From a virus: a DNA stretch of 34,014 bases. Of this stretch, positions 1 to 17,263 are shown piece by piece. Below the pieces are notes generated by a model. It made no database searches. It was not told where the DNA came from and saw only the letters and a list, made by a program, of their open reading frames with translations. Made by a program: the position numbers and the translations under genes. The first letter of the stretch is position 1; the number at the start of each line of letters is the position of its first letter. Where the stretch lies: the IMG/VR virus record IMGVR_UViG_3300022745_000112, positions 1 to 34,014 of that record; one strand, 5' to 3'.

Positions 1-7
1 GGGCAGG

Positions 8-66
8 GTGGGACCCGTGCGGGACCAGTGCGGGACCAGTGCGGGACCAGTGCGGGACCAGTGCGG
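8..66. repeat. 11-bp tandem repeat array
   Basis: The unit GTGCGGGACCA occurs four times without change at 17-27, 28-38, 39-49 and 50-60, followed by a partial GTGCGG at 61-66. A degenerate copy (GTGGGACC) lies at 8-15. The array may continue to the left of the window. The period is close to one helical turn, as in iteron-like binding arrays, but no partner protein or origin feature is visible. Confidence 0.9.
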
Positions 67-3033: not shown

Positions 3034-3591
3034 TCAGGCGAACTTGGCTCGCGTTTCGGTGCCACCGTCTCCACGCGACCAGAAGAATAAGCACAGCGAG
3101 CGTCGAGTTGAGCGGCACTCTGCCACTCGGTGCCATTGGCTGGGAGTCGCAAACATCACGAGTCGATTGGATCGCGTTTCAATTGCCTCGATTTGCTGGC
3201 CCGTGGCGTCGCACAACTCCAACTCGCCGCCATCGCAGTCATCCAAATAGAGCACGACGCTTGCCTCACGTCTCCAAGGCAGCAATGGGTGCCGCTCTGA
3301 ATCGAGATGCAGTCCGAGAGAACCGCCTGCGTCAATTTGATGCAGACCTGCCCCGTGAAGGAACTCTACGTCAGGAAACGAATCATCAATACCGAGCATT
3401 GAGTCAACGTCAATCGTGGACATGACCCGAAGCAGCTCTTTCGCAGCTTGTGGAAGTCGTTCCGGGTCTTTGGTCGCTCGCTTGCCGTTCTCGTATCGGT
3501 GCCAATGCCCGGAGTCCGGCGGCAACCAGGTCTCGGTCAGCGATCGAACGAGTCCCTTCGGTGCGAAGTCGTCAATCACGATGTGACTCAT
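3034..3591 (-). CDS. 2-oxoglutarate/Fe(II)-dependent oxygenase
   Basis: This 185-residue protein looks like a small prolyl-hydroxylase-type dioxygenase. Such enzymes use Fe(II), O2 and 2-oxoglutarate to hydroxylate a protein or small-molecule substrate. The iron ligands are visible: H95 and D97 in LGLHLDSE, and H154 in QWHRV. R163 or R164 (STRRSL) sits ten residues further on, the usual 2-oxoglutarate anchor. Between them is the expected core, VVLYLDDCDGGELEL at residues 112-126. The ATG overlaps the methyltransferase stop (ATGA), so the two are translationally coupled. This is the last gene of the minus-strand operon. The substrate is unknown; the neighbours suggest virion or tail protein, but DNA-base or host substrates are possible. 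Confidence 0.88.
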   Translation of the reverse strand: MSHIVIDDFAPKGLVRSLTETWLPPDSGHWHRYENGKRATKDPERLPQAAKELLRVMSTIDVDSMLGIDDSFPDVEFLHGAGLHQIDAGGSLGLHLDSERHPLLPWRREASVVLYLDDCDGGELELCDATGQQIEAIETRSNRLVMFATPSQWHRVAECRSTRRSLCLFFWSRGDGGTETRAKFA

Positions 3592-4145
3592 ATTGCCCTC
3601 TCGGTAGTTCGCGGATCATGGACAGCAACGACCTCGAACTGATACCGGACCTCGTGCGAGGTGCCGGGGATTAGTCGCATGATCTGCTCATCGGTCATCT
3701 GCGGGAACAGCTTGCGAGCCTCGTCGAGCGTATTTTCCGGCTCGTACCGAGCCATGAGATAAAACAGTCGTTTCTCGCAGTTCGGCCAATAGGCTTGGCA
3801 GTTTATTTCGTTACAGACACGCCACCAGAACTGCGGCCCATAGCTGTGAAAGTGTGGCTCGTAACCGACTCCAAGTCCGCACAAAGAGCAGTCGTGTAGC
3901 CAGTGCGGCAGTCGAATTTCCGCTGTTGCACCGATCCGGCAAATGCGACTAATTTCGTGCAACGCTGGGGCAATGTTGGGCAAGTGCTCTAGGCAGTGTG
4001 ATGAATAGATTTCATCGACTGAGTTATCGTCGATCGGCCACGGCGTCTTGGTGATGTCGTGCTGAATGTTTGCGGCTTCGCATTGATCGAGGTTGATCCA
4101 CTGGCCGCCAAGAGCGTTATTGCCGCCACCGATTTCAAGACGCAT
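3588..4145 (-). CDS. Class I SAM-dependent methyltransferase
   Basis: Start ATG 4145 is chosen because GGAGGT lies just upstream; the open frame extends further into the preceding gene without a good signal. The 185-residue protein begins at once with the SAM-binding loop LEIGGGNN (residues 3-10), then the acidic ribose-binding residue D20 (WINLD). The motif IYSSHCLEHLPN at 46-57 is typical of the Methyltransf_11 group. The C-terminal part carries Trp, Tyr and Cys residues that may form the acceptor site. It overlaps the glycosyltransferase-like gene by 11 bases and the oxygenase by 4. Small methyltransferases of this type act on many acceptors, including sugars; a glycan or the same tail protein as its partners is a plausible but unproven substrate. 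Confidence 0.85.
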   Translation of the reverse strand: MRLEIGGGNNALGGQWINLDQCEAANIQHDITKTPWPIDDNSVDEIYSSHCLEHLPNIAPALHEISRICRIGATAEIRLPHWLHDCSLCGLGVGYEPHFHSYGPQFWWRVCNEINCQAYWPNCEKRLFYLMARYEPENTLDEARKLFPQMTDEQIMRLIPGTSHEVRYQFEVVAVHDPRTTERAI

Positions 4146-5547
4146 TGGATGACCTCCATTGTGAAAGCATTGGCTCGATTGAATTCTGCCAGTAGAAGAA
4201 GTTGTAGAGGTCTTGCATGTCGTCACCGATCGTGACGGCGGACTCATCCTTCGAGAACAGCAAGCCCGGCCAAGCCTCAGTGCCGATAAAGCTCTTCGGA
4301 ACGTTTCGCCAACTTCTGCGAAATACATCACGGTTTCGCCACCAGTAGAATGTCCCGCTGTAGTGCCAGCGACCGAAGCCGAGCTTTGGGGAGTGTGATA
4401 CAAAACGCCGGAACGCTCCCACGGTTGCGTGTTCTTCGAGTAACGGCTGAGTCAGTACCCAATCCGTTCCAAGTTCCCATTGAGCTTGAGTCCACCGGAA
4501 CACCGTCGAGCCATCGGAGTTGTCGGGTACGAGCTTGTGCCGCACACCTTTCGCATGACATGAGAACGTGACATCGTTTTCTGAGTCGTGCAATCGCAGT
4601 CTTTCTAGCATCGGATTCCATGTCGCCACTTCTCGTAGGATCGGATTGTTTTGGACGACAATGAACTCGTCGGTGAAGCCTTGCAGATATCGCCGAACCT
4701 CAAAATCCGAGTCCGTTGTGCCGTCAACGGCAATCGAGACAATCCGACGTCCGTTGAACAACTCAGCGGCTTTTAGTAGTCGATCACAGTTCCATTGCCA
4801 CGCCCCGAAGCCTGCGACAGGATAAATGTGGAACGTGAAATGTCGAATCGCGTTGGTCAGGTCCACGTGTTCTATTGCCGGTCCACCCGGAATCGGAATC
4901 GAAGCGACAAGCGTCTTCGCAGCGTAGTTGTTGACGTTCGGGAGTCGTGATGGCTTGGCTTCGACGATGTTCGGCTGCGTTGGTGGGACGTCGATCCATT
5001 CGAGCGGCTTTGCGGTTTCGATTGCGTTTTCGACGATCTGACGAATGGCCGCTGCTGTGACCGCTGTCGGTAGCAGCTTGGCCCACCACCCGACAGCGTT
5101 CGATTCCCATTCCAGCGCTCGAGGTAAGATGTCGGACACGATCAATTCGAGTTTGTCGCGGCAGCCTTCCGTACCCCATTCATTCATGCGTCGAGCGAGG
5201 TCGTAGCAGGCGTCGCACGCCTCGAATCCGTGCGACTTGAACATCTCGATAAGCCGCCCGCCAACGCCCGTCCCATCGACCATGCGTTGCGCGACCACGT
5301 TTGGCTTCGGTTTGCCTCCTCCGCAGCATCCACCCGTGGTCCTAGCCGCTGTTGGTGAGTTGACGCGACGAACCACGGACACTGACGTTCCGTTGACTGG
5401 TGTTGAGTCATCGTCGATCTCTTCGAGCGGTTCGATCCCGTGCATCAGCCGGAACGTGTTGACTCGCTTGAGCGTCCAGTCGGAAGTCCCTTCGCAGACC
5501 TGCCGCTGTCGTGATCCTAGTGCAAATTGTGAACAGTCAGTGAGCAT
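4135..5547 (-). CDS. Fusion of a Cys-containing phage domain with a glycosyltransferase-like domain
   Basis: Two parts are visible in 470 residues. The N-terminal part (about 1-180) starts with a short motif around RQVCEGTSDWTLKRVN and has a GGCCGGG patch at 72-78. It then has a Cys-containing helical domain (GVGGRLIEMFKSHGFEACDACYDLARRM, 94-121, continued to about 180). I know this arrangement from tail-operon proteins of planctomycete phages. The C-terminal part (about 235-440) has the order FHIYPV (239-244), FNGRRIVSIAVD (264-275), FSCHAKGV (328-335) and WHYSGTFYWWR (394-404). This resembles bacterial glycosyltransferase-like proteins of capsule and surface-glycan loci. I see no DxD pair that I can assign with certainty. 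It starts two bases after the Cys-rich tail gene stops. It probably links a sugar-transfer activity to the virion or its assembly. Confidence 0.65.
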   Translation of the reverse strand: MLTDCSQFALGSRQRQVCEGTSDWTLKRVNTFRLMHGIEPLEEIDDDSTPVNGTSVSVVRRVNSPTAARTTGGCCGGGKPKPNVVAQRMVDGTGVGGRLIEMFKSHGFEACDACYDLARRMNEWGTEGCRDKLELIVSDILPRALEWESNAVGWWAKLLPTAVTAAAIRQIVENAIETAKPLEWIDVPPTQPNIVEAKPSRLPNVNNYAAKTLVASIPIPGGPAIEHVDLTNAIRHFTFHIYPVAGFGAWQWNCDRLLKAAELFNGRRIVSIAVDGTTDSDFEVRRYLQGFTDEFIVVQNNPILREVATWNPMLERLRLHDSENDVTFSCHAKGVRHKLVPDNSDGSTVFRWTQAQWELGTDWVLTQPLLEEHATVGAFRRFVSHSPKLGFGRWHYSGTFYWWRNRDVFRRSWRNVPKSFIGTEAWPGLLFSKDESAVTIGDDMQDLYNFFYWQNSIEPMLSQWRSSNAS

Positions 5548-5549
5548 TG

Positions 5550-7445
5550 TTATTCCAGGAGTGTTTCACGCATCTCAGACGGTTGCAGTGAACTAGGGAT
5601 ATCCGCACAGCCCCAACGGCAATGCGTGTTCATGATGTGCCAGCCTGAGTCTGCGAAGAATGGATCGCACGATTGGACCGTGGCCGGAGTTCTCGTACCG
5701 ATGAACACAGAATCGAACGTGATTGGACCGCCATTAAGGTCAGCACGATCCACCTGATAATTGAATGCTCCCGGTCCACCCGACAGGACGGAAACGCGAA
5801 TCACAAAGTTTCTGGCTTCAGCGTTGTGTTCGTCGGGTGGGCATGAAATCGTTTTGTAGCCGACGTAGCCGCAGACGATCGGATTGTTGGGCCGGTTCTC
5901 AAAGAATCGCTTGAAGTAATGCAGTTCAACCGTGATGTTGCAGTATTCCGGCGTGACATACGGCTCCAGGTGATACGGTCGAGTTTCAATTTCGTAGTAG
6001 AGCAACTCCGGCATTCCGCCGCAGCGTTCTTCAGCACACAGGAAGCACGGAGTTACTTTGCAGTCGCACGGAGCGGCAGAGACCCATAGCCAGTTGTATG
6101 TTGCTGGCGATGCTGGATCATATTCGTTGTGCATTTCGGCGGCTAAGGCTTCGCCACACTCGACGGGCAGGCTCGGCAGAAACGGAACGCTGAAGGTGCC
6201 CACGGCGGTCAGTACGCAATCGCCACACTCGCCCGGACCAAGGTGAATGCTGAGCGGGTCTGCGTATTCGTTGAACTCGCCGCCCGTGAAGACCCAATCA
6301 AAGCCGTTCCACTCGCCGACTCCGCGAACCAGTTGACCATCGACTTCGCCAGTGATGCAGACCTTCTTCACCGCACAGCGGCAAGTTCCGCAGCGATATT
6401 TCCAGCACGAACAATCACCAGCCGAGATGTAAACGAACCTCGGAAGGGGGTCACCCATCAGCCTTGGTGTGAATTCAGGCCGAACGTCATGAGCACTAAT
6501 GTCGCAGCCGCACGACTCGACCGGCAACATCCCTTCGCGGATTTCGTGGATATCGGCTCCAAGCGTGTTCGGTGGAATGCCCCAATCGTTGGTGTCTGTC
6601 CCCGACTGCTCAAAGTCCAATTCGAGGTAGCAGTTCCCGTAATGATCGCCGCGAATGTAGATATGCTCTTGGTCGGTCGTCACGTTTCCGCCGCACGGGA
6701 GATAGCTCCAGCGGTCGCCAAGTTCCTGATTCCACTCAAACCGAACCTGTTCGCGGGCCTCGCCGCTGTGCCTGATGCCATCAACGCAAAGATACCGGGG
6801 GACCGACGTGCAATCGCACTGCGGGTCAATCGGAGTGAACATCTCCATTGGCGGCTTTGTGACGGCTCTTTCAAACGGAACCTTGACCGTGTCGGAGTTG
6901 CCGAACGTCATTGTGCCGACGCAACCGCTCGAATCAACGAGTCCCGTGATGGCGATGTCGGGGATCGACAGGCACGAAGTGTTGACATGGTCGATATAGA
7001 CTCGCTCCGCGACGTAGCCATTACTCGACTCGAAACCCCAATAGCACGCTCCGGCTGAGTAGCCACCGTCATTGTCGTGGGCGATGTAGAGGGTGAAATC
7101 AACGCCGTTGATTGAACCCGTGTAGGTGACTCTCGCATCGAGAGTTCCATCAGCGAAGATCGTCGAGGCCGTGAACACCGCAGGCACAGACACGCTATTG
7201 ACTCGACAGCACGCATTGGCCGCGTCGTCGGGGGTAAACTTCATGCAAAGCATCTTCGGGACGCATCGGCAGCACGAGGCGACATTGATCGCCAACGGCG
7301 GTCTGATGTAGCGGCAAGGGTCACAGCAGCAACAATGATCTTTGATGCCCGTGCGAACCCCGGAGTGATGCTGGGAGCATTGCACACCGCCTTTGACCGC
7401 GTCAGGTCCATCTGAGTATTCAATCCCGTCAATGACCACGCTCAT
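5550..7445 (-). CDS. Large Cys-rich tail or virion protein (631 aa)
   Basis: ATG 7445 overlaps the upstream stop (ATGA) and is preferred to an in-frame start at 7496 inside the preceding gene. About 42 of 631 residues are cysteine by my count, with clusters HCCCCDPC and SCCRC near the N-terminus, CSCWKYRCGTCRC in the middle and CDCKVTPCFLC later. Between the clusters are repeated beta-type segments with Gly, Asn and aromatic residues, as in tail fibres. No catalytic motif or signal peptide is seen. Its place after the tape measure and before the modification genes fits a tail-tip or fibre protein. The cysteines may form disulfides or bind metal. A homologous family is known to me only as planctomycete phage hypotheticals. 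Confidence 0.6.
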   Translation of the reverse strand: MSVVIDGIEYSDGPDAVKGGVQCSQHHSGVRTGIKDHCCCCDPCRYIRPPLAINVASCCRCVPKMLCMKFTPDDAANACCRVNSVSVPAVFTASTIFADGTLDARVTYTGSINGVDFTLYIAHDNDGGYSAGACYWGFESSNGYVAERVYIDHVNTSCLSIPDIAITGLVDSSGCVGTMTFGNSDTVKVPFERAVTKPPMEMFTPIDPQCDCTSVPRYLCVDGIRHSGEAREQVRFEWNQELGDRWSYLPCGGNVTTDQEHIYIRGDHYGNCYLELDFEQSGTDTNDWGIPPNTLGADIHEIREGMLPVESCGCDISAHDVRPEFTPRLMGDPLPRFVYISAGDCSCWKYRCGTCRCAVKKVCITGEVDGQLVRGVGEWNGFDWVFTGGEFNEYADPLSIHLGPGECGDCVLTAVGTFSVPFLPSLPVECGEALAAEMHNEYDPASPATYNWLWVSAAPCDCKVTPCFLCAEERCGGMPELLYYEIETRPYHLEPYVTPEYCNITVELHYFKRFFENRPNNPIVCGYVGYKTISCPPDEHNAEARNFVIRVSVLSGGPGAFNYQVDRADLNGGPITFDSVFIGTRTPATVQSCDPFFADSGWHIMNTHCRWGCADIPSSLQPSEMRETLLE

Positions 7446-8359
7446 GATCCGTAGGCTTCCTCCGCACAGCACAGAGATTCTACGGACCAGAAGCATTCAC
7501 CGGGACGAATCGCACCATAACCGGAGCAATTCACCTTGCCGTTATCATCCTCGCCGACACGCATCAGAAACGCGGTCCCCTTGCGTCCGATCAGCAGCGA
7601 AAGCGGGATGTTGAACCAGCACGTATCAACGTCCCAAACGGTAATGAAATCCCCTTTCTGGACCGAAGACACGCAAAGGACTCGCGTGATGACCGCTTGC
7701 ACGCACGGGCACCGATTGCCGATGTCTGCGTCAAGACCGGGGCAGGCCGCGAGAACCTCGAAGTTGATGATTTCGGCACCACCGCCGCCGCCCGCCCCGC
7801 CGAATCGAATCAATCCATACTGCGAATACTGCGGAGCCTCAGAACCAGCTCGCACATTGCCTACCCACAACACGGAAGCACAGCCGCCACTCACAGCGCT
7901 TAGCGTGTTGTTGTCGATTCTCTCCGTCGCATCGACATCAACCGTGTCGCCCACAACAACATTGGCATCAAGATAGACGATCTGCTTGCCTGCTACTCGC
8001 GCCTTCACCACGCCGTCTTGCGGTGCCGGTTCCAACAAGATTGCGAATCGCCCCCGATAGGCTTCGGTCGCAGGCCATGTGATCCCGAAGCAAGAATTAA
8101 AGAGCAATAAGGCTTCTTGGTTGAGCCCGTCTTCTGGCGGGAATACAGGATCGTCCAGGCCGACCACCGCCAACATCGGCAAATCCACTCCCGTAACATT
8201 CAATACATGGACGATCGAATCATCAGGAACCTCTCGGAACGAGTTCGACGCCTTCACCACGCCCGTTGCTTCGCGAGCGGTCGCGTGGATGGCGTTGATC
8301 GTGGCCGCGCTGGTGCGCGGGAGCGGATCGCCGGGGAAGATCGGGGCAAGGGAGGCCAT
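7442..8359 (-). CDS. Tail-tip type protein with Cys-rich C-terminus (305 aa)
   Basis: The N-terminal 30 residues (PGDPLPRTSAATINAIHATA) are a short motif often seen at the start of minor tail and fibre proteins. The middle is beta-rich with a Gly run, FGGAGGGGGAEIINFEV, that looks like a hinge before residue 200. The last 100 residues contain many cysteines, including CPGLDADIGNRCPCVQ and ESLCCAEEAYGS. The stop overlaps the start of the 631-residue Cys-rich gene, so the two are coupled and probably function together. There is no strong ribosome site at 8359, so the start is less certain. No enzyme motif seen; a structural role is inferred from context. Confidence 0.6.
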   Translation of the reverse strand: MASLAPIFPGDPLPRTSAATINAIHATAREATGVVKASNSFREVPDDSIVHVLNVTGVDLPMLAVVGLDDPVFPPEDGLNQEALLLFNSCFGITWPATEAYRGRFAILLEPAPQDGVVKARVAGKQIVYLDANVVVGDTVDVDATERIDNNTLSAVSGGCASVLWVGNVRAGSEAPQYSQYGLIRFGGAGGGGGAEIINFEVLAACPGLDADIGNRCPCVQAVITRVLCVSSVQKGDFITVWDVDTCWFNIPLSLLIGRKGTAFLMRVGEDDNGKVNCSGYGAIRPGECFWSVESLCCAEEAYGS

Positions 8360-8377: not shown

Positions 8378-9274
8378 TTATGGGAGGAGCGGGACTTTCA
8401 GCTTATTCAGGTCAGCTCGCCCGTAGGTCGGCGTCACCAGTGAGGCGAATGGCGTCGGAACGATCGTGCTGGAAGGCGTGTGAGTCTGCTTGCGAGTCGG
8501 GAAGTGAACGGCGTCCCACCCGCTGATCCACGTCGGAGTACCCGTCCAGGCATTGACCAGGGCATCTTGATACCGACTGATCTTTTTGAACTCCAAATCG
8601 ATCCGAATCAGCCCCGGCCCGGCCCACGATCGCGAGGACGACGCCAGCAGGCATTCGGTCGGTTGGAACTTCTCGACCGCTCCAATCAGGTTGAACTCGA
8701 AGTAAACGCTATTGAGCTTCGATTCGAGCGTACCTAGCAGGTCAATGTAGTTCTGGAGACTTTGATAGTTGGCATTCGACTGCGCTCCCGTGAATTGATC
8801 CGTCCGCCAATAGACCTGCACGGCGTAGGTCTTGACCGGAAAGTAAATCTCGATCCCTTGCACGTCGTTGTTTTGGTCAACGCCAACCATCCCGCCCAAA
8901 TCCGGAGCTGTCTGTCCCGGAGCGGCATAGACGGTCGGTGTATCCGTCCCGCGAAAGGTCTTGCGTGATTCTGGCCGCGAATCGACTTTGGCATCCCACG
9001 TTCCGTGATCCGGCAGTTCCCGCATCCCGTAGTTGACAATGCCGCGAAAACACTTCGACGCTCGCAGCCGCTTGACCACGATTTGACTGACCGGCAGATT
9101 GCCGTAGACCATGTGCCCCAGCGTGACGAGTTCCGCCCGCAAGTCCGCTTCCGCTTGAATCTGCGAATACTCCATGTCGTCCGTCACGATCGCGTATTCG
9201 CGAGTCGCCCCCGGAGTCGGACTATTCGTCAGCTCTTCTTCCCATTCTTGTTCGATCATCAACAGTGACGACAT
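8378..9274 (-). CDS. Unknown tail-module protein (298 aa)
   Basis: AAGGGA precedes ATG 9274. The protein has an acidic N-terminus (MSSLLMIEQEWEEELTNSP), a region that reads like a beta-sandwich (VQGIEIYFPVKTYAVQVYWRT), and a Pro/Thr-rich end (TPFASLVTPTYGR). The segment EFNLIGAVEKFQ and the later WDAVHFPTRKQT also look like virion surface protein. No membrane segment, signal peptide or catalytic motif is visible. It lies between the nuclease gene and the Cys-rich tail genes, where lambda-like phages have minor tail proteins of the tail tip. That role is an inference from position only. Confidence 0.55.
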   Translation of the reverse strand: MSSLLMIEQEWEEELTNSPTPGATREYAIVTDDMEYSQIQAEADLRAELVTLGHMVYGNLPVSQIVVKRLRASKCFRGIVNYGMRELPDHGTWDAKVDSRPESRKTFRGTDTPTVYAAPGQTAPDLGGMVGVDQNNDVQGIEIYFPVKTYAVQVYWRTDQFTGAQSNANYQSLQNYIDLLGTLESKLNSVYFEFNLIGAVEKFQPTECLLASSSRSWAGPGLIRIDLEFKKISRYQDALVNAWTGTPTWISGWDAVHFPTRKQTHTPSSTIVPTPFASLVTPTYGRADLNKLKVPLLP

Positions 9275-9283
9275 GCCAATCCC

Positions 9284-9625
9284 TTAGCTGAGTGCGGCTT
9301 CAATCAAATCCCAATTTTCCGGAGTCCACAAAACCGCTTCGACGCCAGCCCGATGAAACGCTCCCAACCACCGCAATTGCTCCGTCGATGGCTGGTTCTT
9401 ACCCACCTTCAACTCGGCGACAATTTGCTGCTCACCCCGTAACAGCAACAAATCCGGAAACCCCGCCACACTCCGCCGCGAATCGTGAGTGTGATAGACC
9501 ATCCACCCCATCAACTTCGCCAATTGAATCACCTGCCCCATAAACGCCTTCTCGGTAAGCCGAGCGACCCCGCTCCCTTGCGTCTTTGCGGCTTTGCGTC
9601 TTTGCGTTACCTCTCCCCCCATCAT
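9284..9625 (-). CDS. VRR-NUC family nuclease
   Basis: This 113-residue protein carries the PD-(D/E)XK nuclease core of the VRR-NUC domain: GFPDLLLL with D58, then VAELKVGKNQPSTEQ with E71 and K73, and Q84 in the family's usual place. Stand-alone VRR-NUC proteins occur in many phages, normally beside replication or packaging genes; members act as structure-dependent or replication-associated endonucleases. Here it is inside the tail module, its ATG overlapping the tape measure stop (ATGA). Residues 6-17 (VTQRRKAAKTQG) are encoded by a dispersed repeat, so the conserved part starts near residue 20. Whether it is a virion component, a packaging nuclease or a misplaced early gene is open. Confidence 0.85.
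   Translation of the reverse strand: MMGGEVTQRRKAAKTQGSGVARLTEKAFMGQVIQLAKLMGWMVYHTHDSRRSVAGFPDLLLLRGEQQIVAELKVGKNQPSTEQLRWLGAFHRAGVEAVLWTPENWDLIEAALS
9578..9610. repeat. Family C repeat (GCAAAGACGCAAAG type), copy 1, inside a gene
   Basis: On the minus strand this is GTAACGCAAAGACGCAAAG followed by CCGCAAAGACGCAAG. It encodes residues 6-17 of the VRR-NUC protein in frame. Similar sequence is at 12360-12386, 30887-30903 and, as a short piece, 31241-31256. Repeats built from GCAAAG steps are known from several environmental bacteria, usually between genes. Confidence 0.8.
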
Positions 9626-12600
9626 GCCGTCACCTGCCCATTCCGAATTAACTCCCGCAGAGCATCAATGATCCCCACGTAGTACCGAGCATCGTCGCGA
9701 TGCGTCTCCTCGAGCTTCGCAATCACCGCCCCCTGATCGATCTTGATTTGACTCCCCGGAGTCGGCGAAGCCTTGCCCGCACCCCCCAGCGAGGCCATCC
9801 GCATCGCCTGCAAATCCGGAATCCGACTCTTCAGGTCCGCCTTCGCCGACGCCAGATCCGGGACTCGCTGTTTCTCAGCTTCCTTCCGTTTCTGAGCCGC
9901 TTCGAGCAGCCGTTCGCGTTCCGCCGCCGTCGCGTCATCTTCGAACTGCGGCCCAATCCCCGCCTTCTCCCGATCGCGTCGCTTCTTCTCGGCGGCGATC
10001 TTTGCCTTTTCCGCTTCGATCAGCTTCTTGCGATCGTCGGCCTTCTTTTGGACTTCCATTTCTTCGGACCAATCGACTTCCGCCAACTCCTTGGCCCAAT
10101 CGCCGCGCACTGCTTTCTTCGGCTTCTTGCGTCCCTCAATCGCCGCGCGACGTTGAGCGACCATCTCCTCCCGTTGCCGAATTCGCTCTTGAGCCGTCCA
10201 GCGAGCTTGTTCCCGCTTGCTCAAACCGTTCGGCATGGATCGCGGCCCGGTCGGAGTAACCGTTGGACCGGTCGCCGCTTCTTTCGGAGCTTTCCCCGCC
10301 GCCGCGTCTGCCTCTTCTCGTTGCCGCCGCTTCTCTGCGGTTTCCTTGATGACCGTCGCCAAGTTCTCCTTTTCGAGCTTCAGCTTGGCTTCCAAATCTT
10401 TGGCCAGCTTTTGCCGCTCTTCGCCAGCCGCTCCGGCGTTCTTCAGCCGCTCCGCTTCCAAATCTTCGACTCGCTTGCGAGCCGCCTCAACGCGGGCATC
10501 CATGACGGGATCAGCATTCTTGACCTTCTCCCGTTCTTGCTTGCGACCGACGAATTGCTCGTCCAGCGACTTGCGAGCCTCATCGACGTTGAAGTGATTC
10601 AGCCCCAACGCTTTCGAGGTCATCCCGGTCGGATCGAGATCCGCCACCATCTTCGCCGCCGACATCATGGTCAGGATCGTCGAGGCGATCTTTTTTCGAA
10701 TCCACTCGAACGAATTCCATACGATATCGGCCATCGACTGACCCGCTTCGCCCATACCGCCGAACACCGAATCCCATTTCTCGGCGACCCAGGTTCCGAC
10801 TGCGGATGACTTTTCGCCGATCCAAGCCCAAGCCGTACCGAAAGCGGCCGTCACGTCGTTCAGGCGGACGCCGAACCAATCGAACAACGCCAGATCGAGC
10901 GTGTTCGTGATGCTCGCTGCGGAAGTCGTCGCGACTTGCAGCACGCCGGTGAACGCATCACTGGCCCACGTGGTCACGTCGAACCACTTCATTCGCAGAT
11001 AACCGAACCCTTCCGCCCAAATCGTGCGGATGCCGCTCCACAGGATCGACATCGCCGCCGGGATATCGCCCGCTTGCACCGCCTCGCTGATCGCTCCAAA
11101 CGACCGCAACGCCGTCTCTTTGATCCCGGACAGAGTCGGCAGAGCGTCCCCGCGAATCCTCGCCCACATCCCCGACAGTTCACCCGGAGCCGACGCCACC
11201 ACGCTCCGCACCGCCCCCGAAATCCGCCCCCAATTCGCCGCGACAACCAACGCCCCCGCCGCCACCAGCCCCATCGGAGACAACAGCATCGAAGCCCCGC
11301 TCACCAGCTCCGCGAAGCCTTTCAAAGCGACCAACCGCCCCACGGAGCTACTGGCCTTCAACGCACCCGCAGATACCCCGTAGAATCCAGGGATCATTCG
11401 AGCCAACGACTTCGCCGCGTTGACAGACATTGTTCCGATCGAGCGAATCCAACCGATCTTCGGCGGCGCGGCCTTCTTTTCGGTGAAGCCCTTGAACAAG
11501 TCCAAGCTGCTTGCCACTGGCTTCTGTTTTGGAAACCACCGCTCGAAAAATCCCGCTTTCATCGGCAGTTTCGGATAAGCCGCTTTGGCCATCATCTCGG
11601 TCATCGAAGGCAACGACGATGACATTGCCGCCGCGACTGAGTGAACTGGCCGACGATCCGGAGTCGGCCCCGCAAACTTCGGCAACGCCATCGTTGGCTT
11701 CGGCTGCCCCATCTTCATCGCCATGATCTTGCCGTAATCCAATTCAGGACCAGTCGGCTTGACGCGATCAATTCGCTTGCCACCCATCAACTCCGTCATC
11801 GACGGCAACGACGACGACATCGCCGCTGCCAATGAATCCACAACCGAACGATCCGGAGTCGGCCCCGCAAACTTCGGCAATGTTGGCTTTAGGATCGGAG
11901 CCCCCGTGTAGTGATCGACTTGATGAAAGACAGGCTTCACGCCCATCATCTCACCCAGCTTCTTGCCGATCCCGCTGTCCGACGCTTTCGCTGGTTTGAC
12001 CGACTTCTCGACGGACTCCTTCACCGGCAACTCCGACACGACAGGCTTCGCGCCCATCATCTCGCCCAGCTTCTTGCCGATCCCGCTGTCCGACTTACTC
12101 CGCTGTTTAGGCGTCTTCGTGGCGATACTTTCAATCATCCGTGACGGCCAATTAGTCACGAACACAGACACGGCAGACGATTTCGCTGACAGACCCAAAG
12201 ATTTGTCACGCACCTTGGGTAATTCGCCAACGGCCTTTGGCGTCTCCGGCGTTTCCGCAGCCGGTACTTCAGGCCGACGAAACACATTCCGCAGCGAACC
12301 AAAGCCCGCCATCATTTGAGACCCGCCCGCACTCACACCCGCCACCATCCGCTGGTAATCTTTGCGGCTTTGCGCCTTTGCGTAACTCTTTCCCCGCCCC
12401 TTGTCCCGTCCGCTCGACAGACTCGACAGCCCCGGCAGACTGACCGACGACATCAACACGCCCGCCAGCGAAGTCCCCATCCGGTTGGTCTTGGCGATCA
12501 CTCCCAAGACGCCGCTCAACGCGGCACTCAACGCCCGAGCGGGTGTCAACGCGAAGCGCAGAGCGTACCCGATGCCGCGCAGGTTCAACGCGGCCAAGCC

Positions 12601-13821
12601 ACCCGCCGTGCCGATCGCCATCAGTGACACGCCCGCCGCTCCGATACCGGCCACTCCTTTGGCAATGTCCACGATCACTTGCGGATTCTTCATCGTAAAG
12701 TCGGAGAGTGTCTTAAACGCGATTCCCGCCTTGTCGATCTGCGGCACCAAGTGCTTGTCCAATACCGTGCCGATCGACAGACCGAAATCCTTCAATGCGG
12801 CCCAAGAGACTCGCAGCGATCCGCCGATGCCCGAATCCATCGCCTTCGCCGCTCGTTCGGCGTAGCCGGTCACGTTCTGCAGCTCACGTTCGAGTTCCCG
12901 GATCGACCCCGCCGTTTGACCCACGGCGATTGACGAGGTGATGCCGAGAATTCCAAAAGCGTCGTGATACTTCTTCAGCCGATCGGCGGAACCGAGATTC
13001 TTCGTCGCTTGATTGACTCGTTCGAGCACATCAACCAGCGGCAGAGCGTTCCCCGCCGAATCCTTGAACGACACGCCAAAGACTTGTTGCATCCGGTCGG
13101 CATCCGAAGCAGTCATCGCCGCTAATCGCCGAATCGCCGTCCCCGCTTCCGTCCCGACGATCCCGATGTTTCCCAGCGTGCCGATGATGGCCAGCGTTCT
13201 TTGCAGCGAATAGCCTAACTGATACGCGGGGGGACCGGCGTATTCGAGCGACGCACCCAACGACTCAAGGGACGTGGCCGAGGCGTTCGCCGTCTTGGCC
13301 AGCAGATCAGTCACGTTGCCCGCTTCGCTGATATCCTTCTGAAACTGCCGCATCGTCGAGCCGGTAATCTTCGCCGAGAGTGCGACATCCGTCTTCGACG
13401 CCCTCGCCAGCAACAGGACCGATCGAGTCATCTTGTTAATTTCGTCGGTCGCAAACCCCGCGCGACCAAGTTCCGACATCAACGCCCCGATATCCTGAGC
13501 CAAGAACGACGTGCCCCGTCGCATCGCCAGCCGGCGAGCGGTCTTCGTCAACATATCAAGTTGCTTGTTCGTCGCCGACGTGATCCCCGCCACTTCGAGC
13601 ATTTGATCGCTGAACTTCACATAGTCGCTGGTCGCCTTAATGATCGGCACCGACAGCAACGCGCTACCGCTCGCCATCCGCAGCCCGACCGTCCGAATGA
13701 AGTCCGACAGACTCAGCATCCGCACCTGAGTCCGCTTCAACACCGCTTGCAGCTTGGAGTCGTCAGCAAATAGCTCGACAAACGCCCGCCCCGCGCGAAT
13801 CCCTTGTGCCGTCGCTCCCAT
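9622..13821 (-). CDS. Tail tape measure protein, TP901 type
   Basis: At 1399 residues this is the longest gene and sets tail length. Residues about 70-300 match the conserved core of TP901-type tape measures (SDYVKFSDQMLEVAGITSAT, then LLARASKTDV and GTEAGTAIRRLA). A hydrophobic region spans about 388-440 (GIGAAGVSLMAIGTAGGLAA). The middle (about 570-750) is low-complexity Pro/Lys-rich with two sets of internal repeats. A second hydrophobic part follows (SPMGLVAAGALVVAANW, near 850). The last 300 residues are Lys/Glu-rich coiled coil. GGAG precedes the ATG at 13821. Residues about 479-490 are encoded by a dispersed repeat. It is separated from the chaperone gene by about 8.2 kb, whereas in lambda-like phages the two are normally adjacent. 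Confidence 0.93.
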   Translation of the reverse strand: MGATAQGIRAGRAFVELFADDSKLQAVLKRTQVRMLSLSDFIRTVGLRMASGSALLSVPIIKATSDYVKFSDQMLEVAGITSATNKQLDMLTKTARRLAMRRGTSFLAQDIGALMSELGRAGFATDEINKMTRSVLLLARASKTDVALSAKITGSTMRQFQKDISEAGNVTDLLAKTANASATSLESLGASLEYAGPPAYQLGYSLQRTLAIIGTLGNIGIVGTEAGTAIRRLAAMTASDADRMQQVFGVSFKDSAGNALPLVDVLERVNQATKNLGSADRLKKYHDAFGILGITSSIAVGQTAGSIRELERELQNVTGYAERAAKAMDSGIGGSLRVSWAALKDFGLSIGTVLDKHLVPQIDKAGIAFKTLSDFTMKNPQVIVDIAKGVAGIGAAGVSLMAIGTAGGLAALNLRGIGYALRFALTPARALSAALSGVLGVIAKTNRMGTSLAGVLMSSVSLPGLSSLSSGRDKGRGKSYAKAQSRKDYQRMVAGVSAGGSQMMAGFGSLRNVFRRPEVPAAETPETPKAVGELPKVRDKSLGLSAKSSAVSVFVTNWPSRMIESIATKTPKQRSKSDSGIGKKLGEMMGAKPVVSELPVKESVEKSVKPAKASDSGIGKKLGEMMGVKPVFHQVDHYTGAPILKPTLPKFAGPTPDRSVVDSLAAAMSSSLPSMTELMGGKRIDRVKPTGPELDYGKIMAMKMGQPKPTMALPKFAGPTPDRRPVHSVAAAMSSSLPSMTEMMAKAAYPKLPMKAGFFERWFPKQKPVASSLDLFKGFTEKKAAPPKIGWIRSIGTMSVNAAKSLARMIPGFYGVSAGALKASSSVGRLVALKGFAELVSGASMLLSPMGLVAAGALVVAANWGRISGAVRSVVASAPGELSGMWARIRGDALPTLSGIKETALRSFGAISEAVQAGDIPAAMSILWSGIRTIWAEGFGYLRMKWFDVTTWASDAFTGVLQVATTSAASITNTLDLALFDWFGVRLNDVTAAFGTAWAWIGEKSSAVGTWVAEKWDSVFGGMGEAGQSMADIVWNSFEWIRKKIASTILTMMSAAKMVADLDPTGMTSKALGLNHFNVDEARKSLDEQFVGRKQEREKVKNADPVMDARVEAARKRVEDLEAERLKNAGAAGEERQKLAKDLEAKLKLEKENLATVIKETAEKRRQREEADAAAGKAPKEAATGPTVTPTGPRSMPNGLSKREQARWTAQERIRQREEMVAQRRAAIEGRKKPKKAVRGDWAKELAEVDWSEEMEVQKKADDRKKLIEAEKAKIAAEKKRRDREKAGIGPQFEDDATAAERERLLEAAQKRKEAEKQRVPDLASAKADLKSRIPDLQAMRMASLGGAGKASPTPGSQIKIDQGAVIAKLEETHRDDARYYVGIIDALRELIRNGQVTA
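11594..12094 (-). repeat. Internal duplications in the tape measure gene
   Basis: Two repeat pairs lie here. 11941-11983 and 12052-12094 are nearly identical 43-bp copies that encode SDSGIGKKLGEMMG, 111 bp apart. 11594-11686 and 11786-11880 are diverged copies of about 95 bp that encode PKFAGPTPDR...AAAMSSSLPSMTE, about 193 bp apart. Such duplications are a known way for tape measures, and so tails, to lengthen. Confidence 0.85.
12360..12386. repeat. Family C repeat, copy 2, inside the tape measure gene
   Basis: On the minus strand GTTACGCAAAGGCGCAAAG is followed by CCGCAAAG, as in copy 1. It encodes SYAKAQSRKDYQ, residues about 479-490 of the tape measure, without breaking the frame. It lies in the variable region between the hydrophobic segment and the Pro/Lys-rich part. 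Confidence 0.8.
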
Positions 13822-13919: not shown

Positions 13920-16517
13920 TCACTTCGCCAACAACGTTTCCACCACACCCTCTTCGAGCGTCACCACATCGCCGCCCGGATAGACCGCCACCAACCGGAA
14001 GCCCGCTTTATCGACATTGACCAGCATTGATTCCACCGCCGTCATCGCCACATCAATCCGTTGCCCCGATCCCGTCGCCACGGCCACGACACCCTCCACA
14101 GCGACCAACAACGTGTTCACGTCGTAAATGCTCAACGTGACCGTCGCCCCGGTCAGGTTGAACCAGCTCCCCGCCGAGTTCCCGAACTTAATCAACCGCT
14201 CGGTGTCATCCGAGTAATCATCCCCTTGAACCAGCTTCAACAGGCCGCGTCGAACCACCGAACCAAAGATCGCGATATGATCGAGTGCCGCCAGTTGCTC
14301 AAAGACGCCCGCACCCCATGACCCGATAATCATTGATCGAGTCTCGACCTCGTCCGCGATTTGATCCGCAGTCGGAGCACTCCCACCGCCGATCGCGGCA
14401 ATGTCTGCCGCAATGGATTCCCCGTCCGGCGTGCCCAACCGAGCCAGAACCGCGTCATCGGATTCAGAAATCGGCATATCAATGCGATTCAACCACGTAC
14501 CAAGGGTCACTTTGACCTCATCGTAAAACCCTTCGCCGCCACTCAAGACCTGTACCCCCAGCCGACCGTTGCCGTCATGCTGAGCCGTCTCACCATTGAT
14601 TTGCGTGACGTTCGCTTGGACCGTCGTCCCTTGCGGCATCACATAGTCACCGCTCACGAACGAAACGACTCCAGCAGTCCCGGTATCCACTGCCACGTCA
14701 TGCCCGTTGATACCCATCAACTCTGCTTGCACGCCTCGCCCATTATTGACGATCTTCGTGGAGACATCATCCAGGATCGTGTAGAGGGCCGGGTTTCCGC
14801 TCGTCACATCTGCGACAATGTTGTGTGCCGCATTTGCCTCGGAGATCGCAATATCAACCGCTTCCCCAATCGAACCTGCATTCGTAGACACACCGATCGC
14901 CGCCTCAAGCAACGTCTCGTCTGCGATGTTGTTCGCTGGAAGTTTGTTGTAGATCGCCGTCAGATTCGTTCGGTCGGTAGAACTAAAAGAAACCGATCCG
15001 TCAGCATTAACTTGAGGCTGAGTCACTGCCACGAAATTGGACGCAATCGAGTTCGTTGTCGTTGTCCCGGAGAACTTCATTACCAGTGGCTCAAGCGTCG
15101 CCGATGTAGTTACGGTGTATGTTGCCGTGTAGGTTCCGGTTGATCCGTGAGTCCATCCGCTGAAGTTAGAACTACGATCAGTACCAACGGCATTCGTGAT
15201 TGCGCTTGTGATCGTTCCGCCGTCCGCATCCTGTAATTGCCCGTTTTCATTCCAGATATACAGAGTGATTGGATACGCCTTATTCGTGCTTTCCACTGGA
15301 TAAACAAGCGAAGTCACAACCAAGGCGTTCGGCATCGACTGCGTGAAGTTCACGATATCAGCATGAGATGCAACACTGCCTCCGACGTTAAGGTTGTCCC
15401 AAAATCCAGCGCGGGAACTTGTTACGCGACCAAGCAAAGTAGTTGTTCCACTCGTATCAGCATTCAGCGTGACTGTGGAATTGATTGCATTCGCCGTTGT
15501 CTGCAACGCTGACACCGCAGATGCCGACGCAAGCGTTGATCCGGGGTCATGACCTGCCAGCGTGCCAAGATTTGTCGCGAGCGTACCGGACCACGTTGCC
15601 GTTGAAAGCGCCGTCGCCGCCAATGCCGCGTTGTCCGTTCCTCGCATGTCCGTGTTAGTGGTTGTTGTGTCAACCAGCGTAACACGAGGAAGCACGACTC
15701 CAGTTTGAGCATCCGTCGAAAGCATCGCCTTGTTGTCAGCGCCGAGAACCCAGTCTTTCAGTTTCTTGCCAACACTGCCAACTGTTAAAAAACCGCTCGT
15801 CAGCGAATTCCAAATAACTCCCGCCGTCGTCGTTCGCTCTCCGCTGGTTAACGCCATTGCGTCTCCGGCCTGCGACGCGGTTTTGGCGGGATCATAAGCG
15901 GAAGTCAAAGAGAACCCAGTCTTGTCACTCACTGTCACCGCTGGAGTTGCGGCATTCAGTGAGGTTTTTTGCGTGCTCGTGAAGTCCATCGCAGTGTTGA
16001 ATGCGAACGACGACGAATTTAGTGCGTATGCTCCACCAGTCACTTGCGTTTGCGTGAGCGTCGATGTCCCAAGCGTCGCACCGGGATCATGGCTCGACAG
16101 CGTGTTTGCGTTCGTGCCGTTGATTGCTGCTCCGCTTGAGCCGACGTATCCGGCAACCGCCGAGACCGCTGCCGTCGCTGCAATCAGTCCTCCAGTTCCA
16201 TTGGTGGCGTTCGTGATCAGTGCATCAAAAACAGAAGGCAGAAACACCAATAGATTCTTTTGAGGCATCTGATACGTGGATTTATTGCAACTGATTTCCA
16301 CTCGCCCGACCGTGTCCGTGTTTCCGGTCGTCAACGCGAGCGTATACATGCCGTTGGCGATATAGGTCAGCGTTGCCGCTGAAGCCAATGCCGTGAGCGT
16401 GCCGCCGTTTTTGCTGATCGACAAATCGCCGATCACGGCAGATGCGTATTCCGCTCCCGTCGAGTCGAGAATCGGACCAACGATGCAACTGGCAGCGGTT
16501 GATTGTTTGAGCCACAT
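13920..16517 (-). CDS. Large tail fibre or baseplate-type protein (865 aa)
   Basis: The protein is rich in Thr, Ala, Ser and Asn, as long beta-structured fibres are. It has repeated short modules, for example SSHDPGATLGTSTLTQTQV and AGHDPGSTLASASAVSALQ. The C-terminal 110 residues (LKLVQGDDYSDDTERLIKF, then NLTGATVTLSIYDV) look like the N-terminal domain of BppU-type baseplate proteins, here at the C-terminus. The first 90 residues have a similar beta-sandwich character (VGPILDSTGAEYASAVIGDL). It shares one base with the upstream LamG-type gene (TAATG) and has GGGAG upstream, so the two are coupled. A receptor-binding or baseplate role is likely. Its position ahead of the tape measure is unusual for a fibre. 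Confidence 0.7.
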   Translation of the reverse strand: MWLKQSTAASCIVGPILDSTGAEYASAVIGDLSISKNGGTLTALASAATLTYIANGMYTLALTTGNTDTVGRVEISCNKSTYQMPQKNLLVFLPSVFDALITNATNGTGGLIAATAAVSAVAGYVGSSGAAINGTNANTLSSHDPGATLGTSTLTQTQVTGGAYALNSSSFAFNTAMDFTSTQKTSLNAATPAVTVSDKTGFSLTSAYDPAKTASQAGDAMALTSGERTTTAGVIWNSLTSGFLTVGSVGKKLKDWVLGADNKAMLSTDAQTGVVLPRVTLVDTTTTNTDMRGTDNAALAATALSTATWSGTLATNLGTLAGHDPGSTLASASAVSALQTTANAINSTVTLNADTSGTTTLLGRVTSSRAGFWDNLNVGGSVASHADIVNFTQSMPNALVVTSLVYPVESTNKAYPITLYIWNENGQLQDADGGTITSAITNAVGTDRSSNFSGWTHGSTGTYTATYTVTTSATLEPLVMKFSGTTTTNSIASNFVAVTQPQVNADGSVSFSSTDRTNLTAIYNKLPANNIADETLLEAAIGVSTNAGSIGEAVDIAISEANAAHNIVADVTSGNPALYTILDDVSTKIVNNGRGVQAELMGINGHDVAVDTGTAGVVSFVSGDYVMPQGTTVQANVTQINGETAQHDGNGRLGVQVLSGGEGFYDEVKVTLGTWLNRIDMPISESDDAVLARLGTPDGESIAADIAAIGGGSAPTADQIADEVETRSMIIGSWGAGVFEQLAALDHIAIFGSVVRRGLLKLVQGDDYSDDTERLIKFGNSAGSWFNLTGATVTLSIYDVNTLLVAVEGVVAVATGSGQRIDVAMTAVESMLVNVDKAGFRLVAVYPGGDVVTLEEGVVETLLAK

Positions 16518-17248
16518 TAGGAATTACTCCCACACAACAAAACACGTCGCCTGCGATTCGTGGCCACGCTCAATGACGGAATGAAAATCTTCCGTCGCTT
16601 CGGTGTCCAAATCGGCGAATCGGTTACTTGGACTGCACCGGTCACAACCATGTCTCTGACACGCGGAGCGTTTGGATTTTGGTCGAATTCAATGCGTGAC
16701 CCCATCGTGTTGAGCGGCCAGTAACCTACAAGGCTCCCTGACTGCCCCGCATTATCTGGAGTCTGCCCTAAAGCGAGCGAGGCGACTACATCTGCGCTGA
16801 GCGCAGCATTCCATATAGCGGCATAAGCAATCGTTGAATTATTGCTAGACGCCCCGACACCTTTACACCCAATGGTTGTGTTGACAAGACCAGTCACCGC
16901 ACCGGATGTGCCAGAGCTAGGCTGTGAATCATACCTGTTCACGTACAATTGAATGCTGTCAACCGCATACCAAACCGCAAGCACATGGTGCCATTTGCCT
17001 GGCGTGAGCACCGACACTCCATTGGCAGATGCCGTACCAGAAGCGCCGACCGTTTTCGCAAACCCCTGCATTGACGACAGCTCTAGCGTAAAACACCTCG
17101 TCATGCCTGACCCATTATTAATAGTCATCAACACTTGGTCGCTCGTCGTTCTCGGAAGAACCCAGCATCCCATCGAAAAAGGCGCAGCGGTTATTGCAGC
17201 AGAAGCCAACCTGCACCCTTGTGTGACCGCTGTGTTGCGACGACTCAT
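16517..17248 (-). CDS. LamG-like (concanavalin fold) domain protein, probable adhesin
   Basis: ATG 17248 is chosen because AGGCGG lies nine bases upstream; a TTG three codons earlier is the alternative. The 243-residue protein contains a LamG/pentraxin-like jelly-roll domain over about residues 10-190. Markers are FSMGCWVLPRTT, then KWHHVLAVWYAVDSIQLYVN, then IAYAAIWNAALSADVVASL and VGYWPLNTMGS. In phages these domains bind glycans or decorate capsid or tail. The C-terminus is basic (TPKRRKIF...NRRRRVLL). Its stop overlaps the start of the 865-residue tail protein. Probably a receptor-binding or host-attachment component. Confidence 0.8.
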   Translation of the reverse strand: MSRRNTAVTQGCRLASAAITAAPFSMGCWVLPRTTSDQVLMTINNGSGMTRCFTLELSSMQGFAKTVGASGTASANGVSVLTPGKWHHVLAVWYAVDSIQLYVNRYDSQPSSGTSGAVTGLVNTTIGCKGVGASSNNSTIAYAAIWNAALSADVVASLALGQTPDNAGQSGSLVGYWPLNTMGSRIEFDQNPNAPRVRDMVVTGAVQVTDSPIWTPKRRKIFIPSLSVATNRRRRVLLCGSNS

Positions 17249-17263
17249 ATTATTCAACCGCCT

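Follow-up and report, generated by a model that had tools for sequence, protein, structure and literature searches.

To our knowledge, glycosylation of phage virions is known in few cases and has not been recognized as a tail feature that is hypervariable and can be exchanged. Mycobacteriophage virions are reportedly glycosylated, the phage-encoded glycosyltransferases being thought to decorate virion proteins (Freeman et al. 2023, cited in PMC11256854), and no linked hydroxylase or block exchange is known in that system. Here, we analyzed a 34,014-base viral contig from IMG/VR (IMGVR_UViG_3300022745_000112; hereafter, the window), in which a cassette of three minus-strand genes, ordered glycosyltransferase-like (GT), methyltransferase (MT), and oxygenase (OX), closes a tail operon. 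In uncultured phages with related loci, a decoration block that includes the end of the Cys-rich tail protein is exchanged between near-identical phages. We consider it fairly probable that these cytoplasmic enzymes decorate a tail-tip protein with a variable, methylated glycan and, in some lineages, also hydroxylate it. The window shares phage-encoded GTs with the mycobacteriophages, and differs in that its cassette lies within the tail operon, whereas Maravista carries its GT genes close to the 3' genome end (PMC11256854).

The 638-aa protein A064R of PBCV-1 unites a GT-GT-MT arrangement in one chain acting on the chlorovirus capsid N-glycan; its domain 2, an inverting and cation-independent rhamnosyltransferase, represents a new GT family that includes a planctomycete relative, and a methyltransferase domain follows (PMC9614988). 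The window resembles A064R and A061L in the virus-encoded GT-A transferase and S-adenosylmethionine (SAM) methyltransferase, and a GT-GT-MT fusion in one related locus, L015, has the A064R layout. Additionally, the window GT model matches the BFVD entry M1IF74, which has the same 638-aa length, a lead that the window GT may belong to the family of A064R domain 2. Unlike the PBCV-1 proteins, the window genes are separate, concern the tail of a phage, not the capsid of an algal virus, and include an OX of prolyl-hydroxylase type.

Mimivirus L230 combines a lysyl hydroxylase with a glucosyltransferase that acts on viral collagen (PMC9614988). It shares with the window the coupling of a 2-oxoglutarate (2OG) oxygenase to a sugar transferase in a virus, and the window GT fold also matches LH3 and COLGALT1; however, the window genes are separate, OX is of the prolyl hydroxylase domain/prolyl 4-hydroxylase (PHD/P4H) type, and a methyltransferase is added. 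No collagen-like Gly-X-Y tract was found in any frame of the window (longest run, 5). In the cytosolic Skp1 pathway of Dictyostelium, the PHD-class prolyl hydroxylase PhyA acts before glycosylation by Gnt1 (PMC3515798, PMC7864055); that pathway belongs to eukaryotic cellular signaling, whereas the phage hydroxylase is optional. PHD-like oxygenases are reported to be widespread in phages of marine bacteria (PMC12774648), so the OX enzyme class is not new in itself. These PHD/EGLN-like 2OG oxygenases (PHROG 61) are of the same fold class as the window OX, but the latter is fixed in a tail-end GT-MT cassette, which the cited passages do not describe.

Enzyme classes and gene layout

The original prediction had described three consecutive overlapping genes directly after Cys-rich tail genes, and the coordinates agree. 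The GT gene (5547-4135, minus strand, 470 aa, ATG start) begins 2 bases past the stop of the Cys-rich gene (5550-7496, minus strand). It overlaps the MT gene (4145-3588, minus strand) by 11 bases (4135-4145), and the MT gene overlaps the OX gene (3591-3034, minus strand, 185 aa, ATG start) by 4 bases (3588-3591). MT has 185 aa counted from ATG, with an alternative longer reading of 271 aa from a TTG start. Shine-Dalgarno-like sequences (GGAGG / GAGAGGG) lie upstream of MT and OX, and no membrane-spanning stretch was found in GT, MT, or OX. The location at the end of a tail operon was likewise borne out by a tape measure gene at 9622-13821 on the minus strand (PF10145, E=1.8e-38; PHROG 1533, E=1.7e-58), after which a VRR-NUC gene, a tail gene, a second Cys-containing gene, and the Cys-rich gene precede the cassette. 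Based on its position between the tape measure/tail genes and the cassette, the Cys-rich protein (648 aa, 43 Cys) is a candidate substrate and tail-tip protein.

Pfam matches upheld the methyltransferase and 2OG-Fe(II) oxygenase labels. The middle gene is assigned, by sequence, to the class I SAM-dependent methyltransferases, with a PF08241 (Methyltransf_11) match of 30.1 bits against a cut-off of 21.2 (E=7.9e-7), a match to the PHROG 6636 methyltransferase, and a glycine-rich motif I reading LEIGGG. OX matched PF13640 (E=6.8e-14). Its model, built from 31 sequences, showed a double-stranded beta-helix (predicted local distance difference test, pLDDT, 95.8), and the nearest PDB fold was the P. 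putida P4H 4j25 (E=2.6e-8, template modeling (TM) score 0.70), followed by HIF-PHD2 and OGFOD1. A PDB-profile search also placed OX near protein prolyl hydroxylases; PolD (9blq, polyoxin pathway) was the single metabolite-pathway enzyme near the top. The predicted Fe/2OG residues H95, D97, and H154 (HxD...H triad) and R163 were invariant in 39/39 OX sequences. Both profile and model assign OX to the protein prolyl-hydroxylase (PHD/P4H) class rather than to the nucleotide-acting TET/AlkB class, and no TET/JBP or AlkB protein appeared among the Pfam, PDB-profile, or top PDB-fold matches.

The GT-like protein gave no useful sequence match in Pfam, PHROGs, or PDB. Its C-terminal 250 residues were modeled with AlphaFold from a 17-sequence alignment (pLDDT 90.5; predicted TM score, pTM, 0.90). 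Foldseek matched the model with high probability to the GT-A enzymes ArnC, dolichyl-phosphate mannose synthase (DPMS), GtrB, GlcAT-P, LH3, and COLGALT1; among viral models, the matches were uncultured-phage proteins, a Klosneuvirus glycosyltransferase, and M1IF74 (best matches, TM 0.54-0.63). The domain (4138-4890, minus strand) is predicted to adopt a GT-A-like (nucleotide-diphospho-sugar transferase) fold, and its family conserves H331-A-K333-G (an H-x-K-G motif), S-G, and E424 (E-x-W). The glycosyltransferase-like label fits only residues ~220-470; residues 1-220 form a separate Cys-containing region (4891-5547, minus strand) with 34% identity to a stand-alone open reading frame (ORF; L059:6438-6944). 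Relatives fuse the corresponding region to phosphoribosyltransferase (PRTase) or GT2 domains, the latter as in L113. This region probably docks the GT on a tail protein, as a possible adaptor.

Recurrence and block exchange in uncultured phages

Metagenomic contigs of uncultured phages were scanned with three independent seeds, OX, GT, and the tail gene T2 (the second Cys-containing gene above). The T2 seed is independent of the cassette, because T2 carries no information on it. Among 20 usable T2-seeded loci, 18 had a GT 1.8-3.3 kb downstream, and the remaining two (L165 and L195) had a PRTase-type protein on the same Cys-rich N-terminal region. A methyltransferase was seen in 19/20 (Pfam matches and homologues; none in L183), and OX in 8/20. 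These counts indicate that sugar transfer and methylation are the near-constant core, while OX is a lineage-linked option. Its recurrence with all three seeds shows that the set is not unique. No difference in the T2 family was seen between OX-bearing and OX-less loci. In L165, L166, and L195, the N-terminal region is 75-84% identical, and the PRTase part matches Pribosyltran (E=1.4e-7 to 3.9e-7) and contains a DFDG motif like that of the haloacid dehalogenase (HAD) family, without a HAD Pfam match. A PRTase plus a HAD is the make-up of ribofuranosyltransferases (PMC11127046). The cassette slot in relatives is dominated by sugar chemistry, including GT2 fusions, sugar epimerases, and sulfotransferases.

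The OX seed returned 17 loci, and GT immediately preceded OX in all having upstream sequence (the contigs of L010 and L022 end too early). L002 and L003 share the order tape measure/tail/Cys-rich/GT/MT/OX, and their identities with the window are 57-59% for the GT domain, 39-40% for MT, and 38-50% for OX. Most OX-seeded loci without the window-type MT have another MT in the cassette. It follows OX in L011 (called by Pfam) and in L013, L015, L017, and L019 (called by homology; the L019 copy is Pfam-matched as L112). L020 has a fused MT+GT2, and no MT was seen in the cassettes of L007/L008. Scattered genes in related phages had been named as the outcome contrary to the original prediction; the three genes were instead found together at the tail end.

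The GT seed yielded 104 relatives, of which 80 were fetched. In 48 non-redundant loci with at least 3 kb downstream, OX occurred in 28 and OX plus the window-type MT in 15; in the closest tier, OX occurred in 27/32. OX matches lay between -0.5 and +3 kb from the GT end in 34/37 cases, all on the same strand, compared with a mean of 8.8 and a maximum of 19 under random placement (5000 trials). Mapped onto a 65-sequence GT tree, the presence of OX required 9 changes against 21.5 expected for shuffled labels (0/500). OX presence is therefore clustered on the GT tree, and was gained or lost several times. In the cultured-phage collection, we found no relative of GT (window, L019, and L021 queries) or of the T2 family, and only distant OX relatives; S-RIM8 has its OX beside head/replication genes. 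Among 100 genomes searched from the phylum of L003, L003 was the only match.

Two further gene families were observed at these loci. A Radical SAM/SPASM gene stands at the cassette position beside GT (L026:7725-8780), one of four such genes among GT neighbors, which suggests a peptide-modifying alternative to OX. A 235-aa family without a Pfam match, which looks, from its sequence, like a GT-A enzyme bearing a DCD motif, occurs in OX-less cassettes (L111:14390-15094, L160:12536-13252, L183:12602-13309, L187:12295-13092).

Comparison of distinct phages with at least 92% upstream identity, repeat records of the same phage excepted, showed a different cassette in every pair found. The 98.6% identity of L190 and L192 spans 10,082 bp, reaching about two-thirds into the Cys-rich gene; beyond this point, the last ~150 codons of that gene and the cassette show a distant relationship or none (GT, 27%). 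Between L192 and L194, a block of ~3.5 kb is replaced between flanks of 97.3% identity upstream and 98.3% over 4.2 kb downstream. Similarly, L050/L162 show 99.5% upstream and 98.2% downstream, and L111/L112 show 93.7% over 9.7 kb. L162 and L165 have the Cys-rich protein and the N-terminal region in common and differ in the transferase domain (GT vs PRTase). In relatives, the N-terminal half of the Cys-rich protein is conserved and its C-terminus is swapped. Assembly chimerism is an unlikely source of the swaps: the paired sequences derive from different metagenomes, three pairs regain similarity downstream, and the swapped version in L161/L162 is identical across two assemblies.

Proposed function and alternative explanations

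We infer the activity, substrate, step order, and purpose of the cassette as follows. A late-expressed cytoplasmic cassette would decorate the virion before or during assembly. The GT-A-like enzyme would move a sugar onto a tail-tip protein, or onto a short glycan there, the acceptor most likely being the Cys-rich protein encoded immediately upstream. MT would cap the added sugar, as in PBCV-1 A064R, and the PHD-type OX would hydroxylate that same tail-tip protein, most likely at a proline, either to create the site of glycan attachment, as Skp1 illustrates, or as a second modification. A virion protein as the target is suggested by the position of the cassette and by the joint exchange, as one block, of the cassette and the final part of the Cys-rich tail gene. 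Through exchange of this mosaic locus as a block, close relatives would display different decorated tail tips, possibly for adsorption specificity or escape from host factors, and the swap pattern is that expected for a tail-tip determinant under diversifying selection. If so, a large group of uncultured phages would owe its tail-tip specificity to enzymes plus the tail-protein sequence, receptor prediction from sequence alone would be unreliable for these phages, and the DxD-less sugar transferase family and the phage prolyl hydroxylases would have a testable natural substrate. More tentatively, the locus might represent phage hydroxyproline-linked glycosylation, in which a PHD-class hydroxylase, a metal-independent GT-A enzyme, and an MT build a methylated glycan on the Cys-rich tail-tip protein, with serotype-like switching by whole-block swap with that protein's end.

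Several observations weigh against tail-tip decoration in this form. The TM-scores of the GT model to solved GT-A enzymes are low (~0.45), and a conserved DxD is absent from the GT family, the sole candidate being the non-conserved D279-S-D; sugar transfer would probably proceed without a metal ion, for which A064R domain 2 is an example (PMC9614988). Block exchange was seen in relatives only, the window having no close relative among the fetched loci. Covariation between GT and the Cys-rich C-terminus was not significant over 34 loci (Mantel r=0.07, p=0.10), and near-identical Cys-rich C-termini are paired with unrelated GTs, and the reverse. Since no significant covariation with enzyme type was found, the acceptor does not have to be the C-terminus; the pieces recombine independently, and a conserved part of the Cys-rich protein, another tail protein, or the GT N-terminal region may thus serve instead. 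Finally, because OX is optional, GT does not generally depend on it.

The last point bears on a strict pathway, possible but doubtful, in which OX makes hydroxyproline on a tail protein, GT glycosylates that hydroxyl, and MT caps the product. It agrees with the profile and fold searches, which place OX nearest to protein prolyl hydroxylases, with the clustering of OX on the GT tree, which binds OX to certain GT lineages, and with the precedents of Skp1 (PMC3515798) and Mimivirus L230 (PMC9614988). However, 12 of the 20 T2-seeded loci lack this OX family and still have GT or PRTase, nearly all with MT, and OX was lost or gained several times on the tree. Hydroxylation as the general acceptor-making step, as initially proposed, was not sustained; such an order is possible in OX-bearing lineages only.

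Other targets are less likely than tail-tip decoration. It is improbable that the cassette alters host envelope glycans, whether at a late stage of infection or during lysogeny, to exclude superinfecting phages or to avoid adsorption to debris. Envelope glycan loci typically contain GT, MT, epimerases, and sulfotransferases, and L003 lies in a contig of a bacterial metagenome-assembled genome in which one ORF reads, by eye, like an integrase; yet the cassette sits at the tail-operon end with overlapping starts, its three enzymes have no membrane-spanning stretch and are exchanged along with the tail-gene end, and a PHD-type protein hydroxylase fits poorly. We regard it as very unlikely that the substrate of OX is host EF-Tu or a ribosomal protein, as for PPHD and OGFOD1, with GT/MT as unrelated neighbors. 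The top fold matches (P. putida EF-Tu hydroxylase, HIF-PHD2, and OGFOD1) point that way, but GT stands beside OX at every OX locus with upstream sequence, and such a link would not be expected of an independent gene directed at the host. Phages with 5-methylcytosine hypermodification carry the same three enzyme classes, but DNA hypermodification by an MT, a TET-like oxygenase, and a GT receives the least credence and was rejected on fold, family, and motifs: the matches of OX are to PF13640 and prolyl hydroxylases, with TET/JBP and AlkB absent from them, the window MT has neither the PC or ENV motif of C5-cytosine methylases nor a PF00145 match, and the cassette lies within the tail module.

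Neighboring genes and other features of the window

The T2 protein (305 aa, 7442-8359, minus strand) has 34% identity to L002:4623-5468 and belongs to cluster 2, found in 14 loci. The preceding gene (8378-9274, minus strand, 298 aa) is assigned to the tail by position only, that of the relatives' tail clusters 6/7, and has no Pfam or PHROG match. The VRR-NUC nuclease gene (9284-9625, minus strand; PF08774, PHROG 93 endonuclease) occupies an unusual position between the tape measure and tail genes. A gene upstream of the tape measure (16517-17257, minus strand) encodes a protein with a Laminin-G/concanavalin-like lectin domain (PF13385), another possible surface-exposed virion protein.

An element of ~75-85 nt occurs in three copies on the plus strand (1771-1843, 2250-2322, and 2883-2966), between small plus-strand ORFs. 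It gave no Rfam match, and its core motif had no occurrence in the other fetched loci or among exact viral-contig matches. Its outer arms are GCTCGTAGTG...CACTACGAGC, and the inner hairpins, TCGCATTCATGCGA and CCGATGAATCGG, have complementary loops (ATTCAT/ATGAAT). The third copy has a predicted fold of -42.3 kcal/mol (z=-6.1). The contig starts with a short tandem repeat of the 11-nt unit CAGTGCGGGAC (4-66, plus strand).

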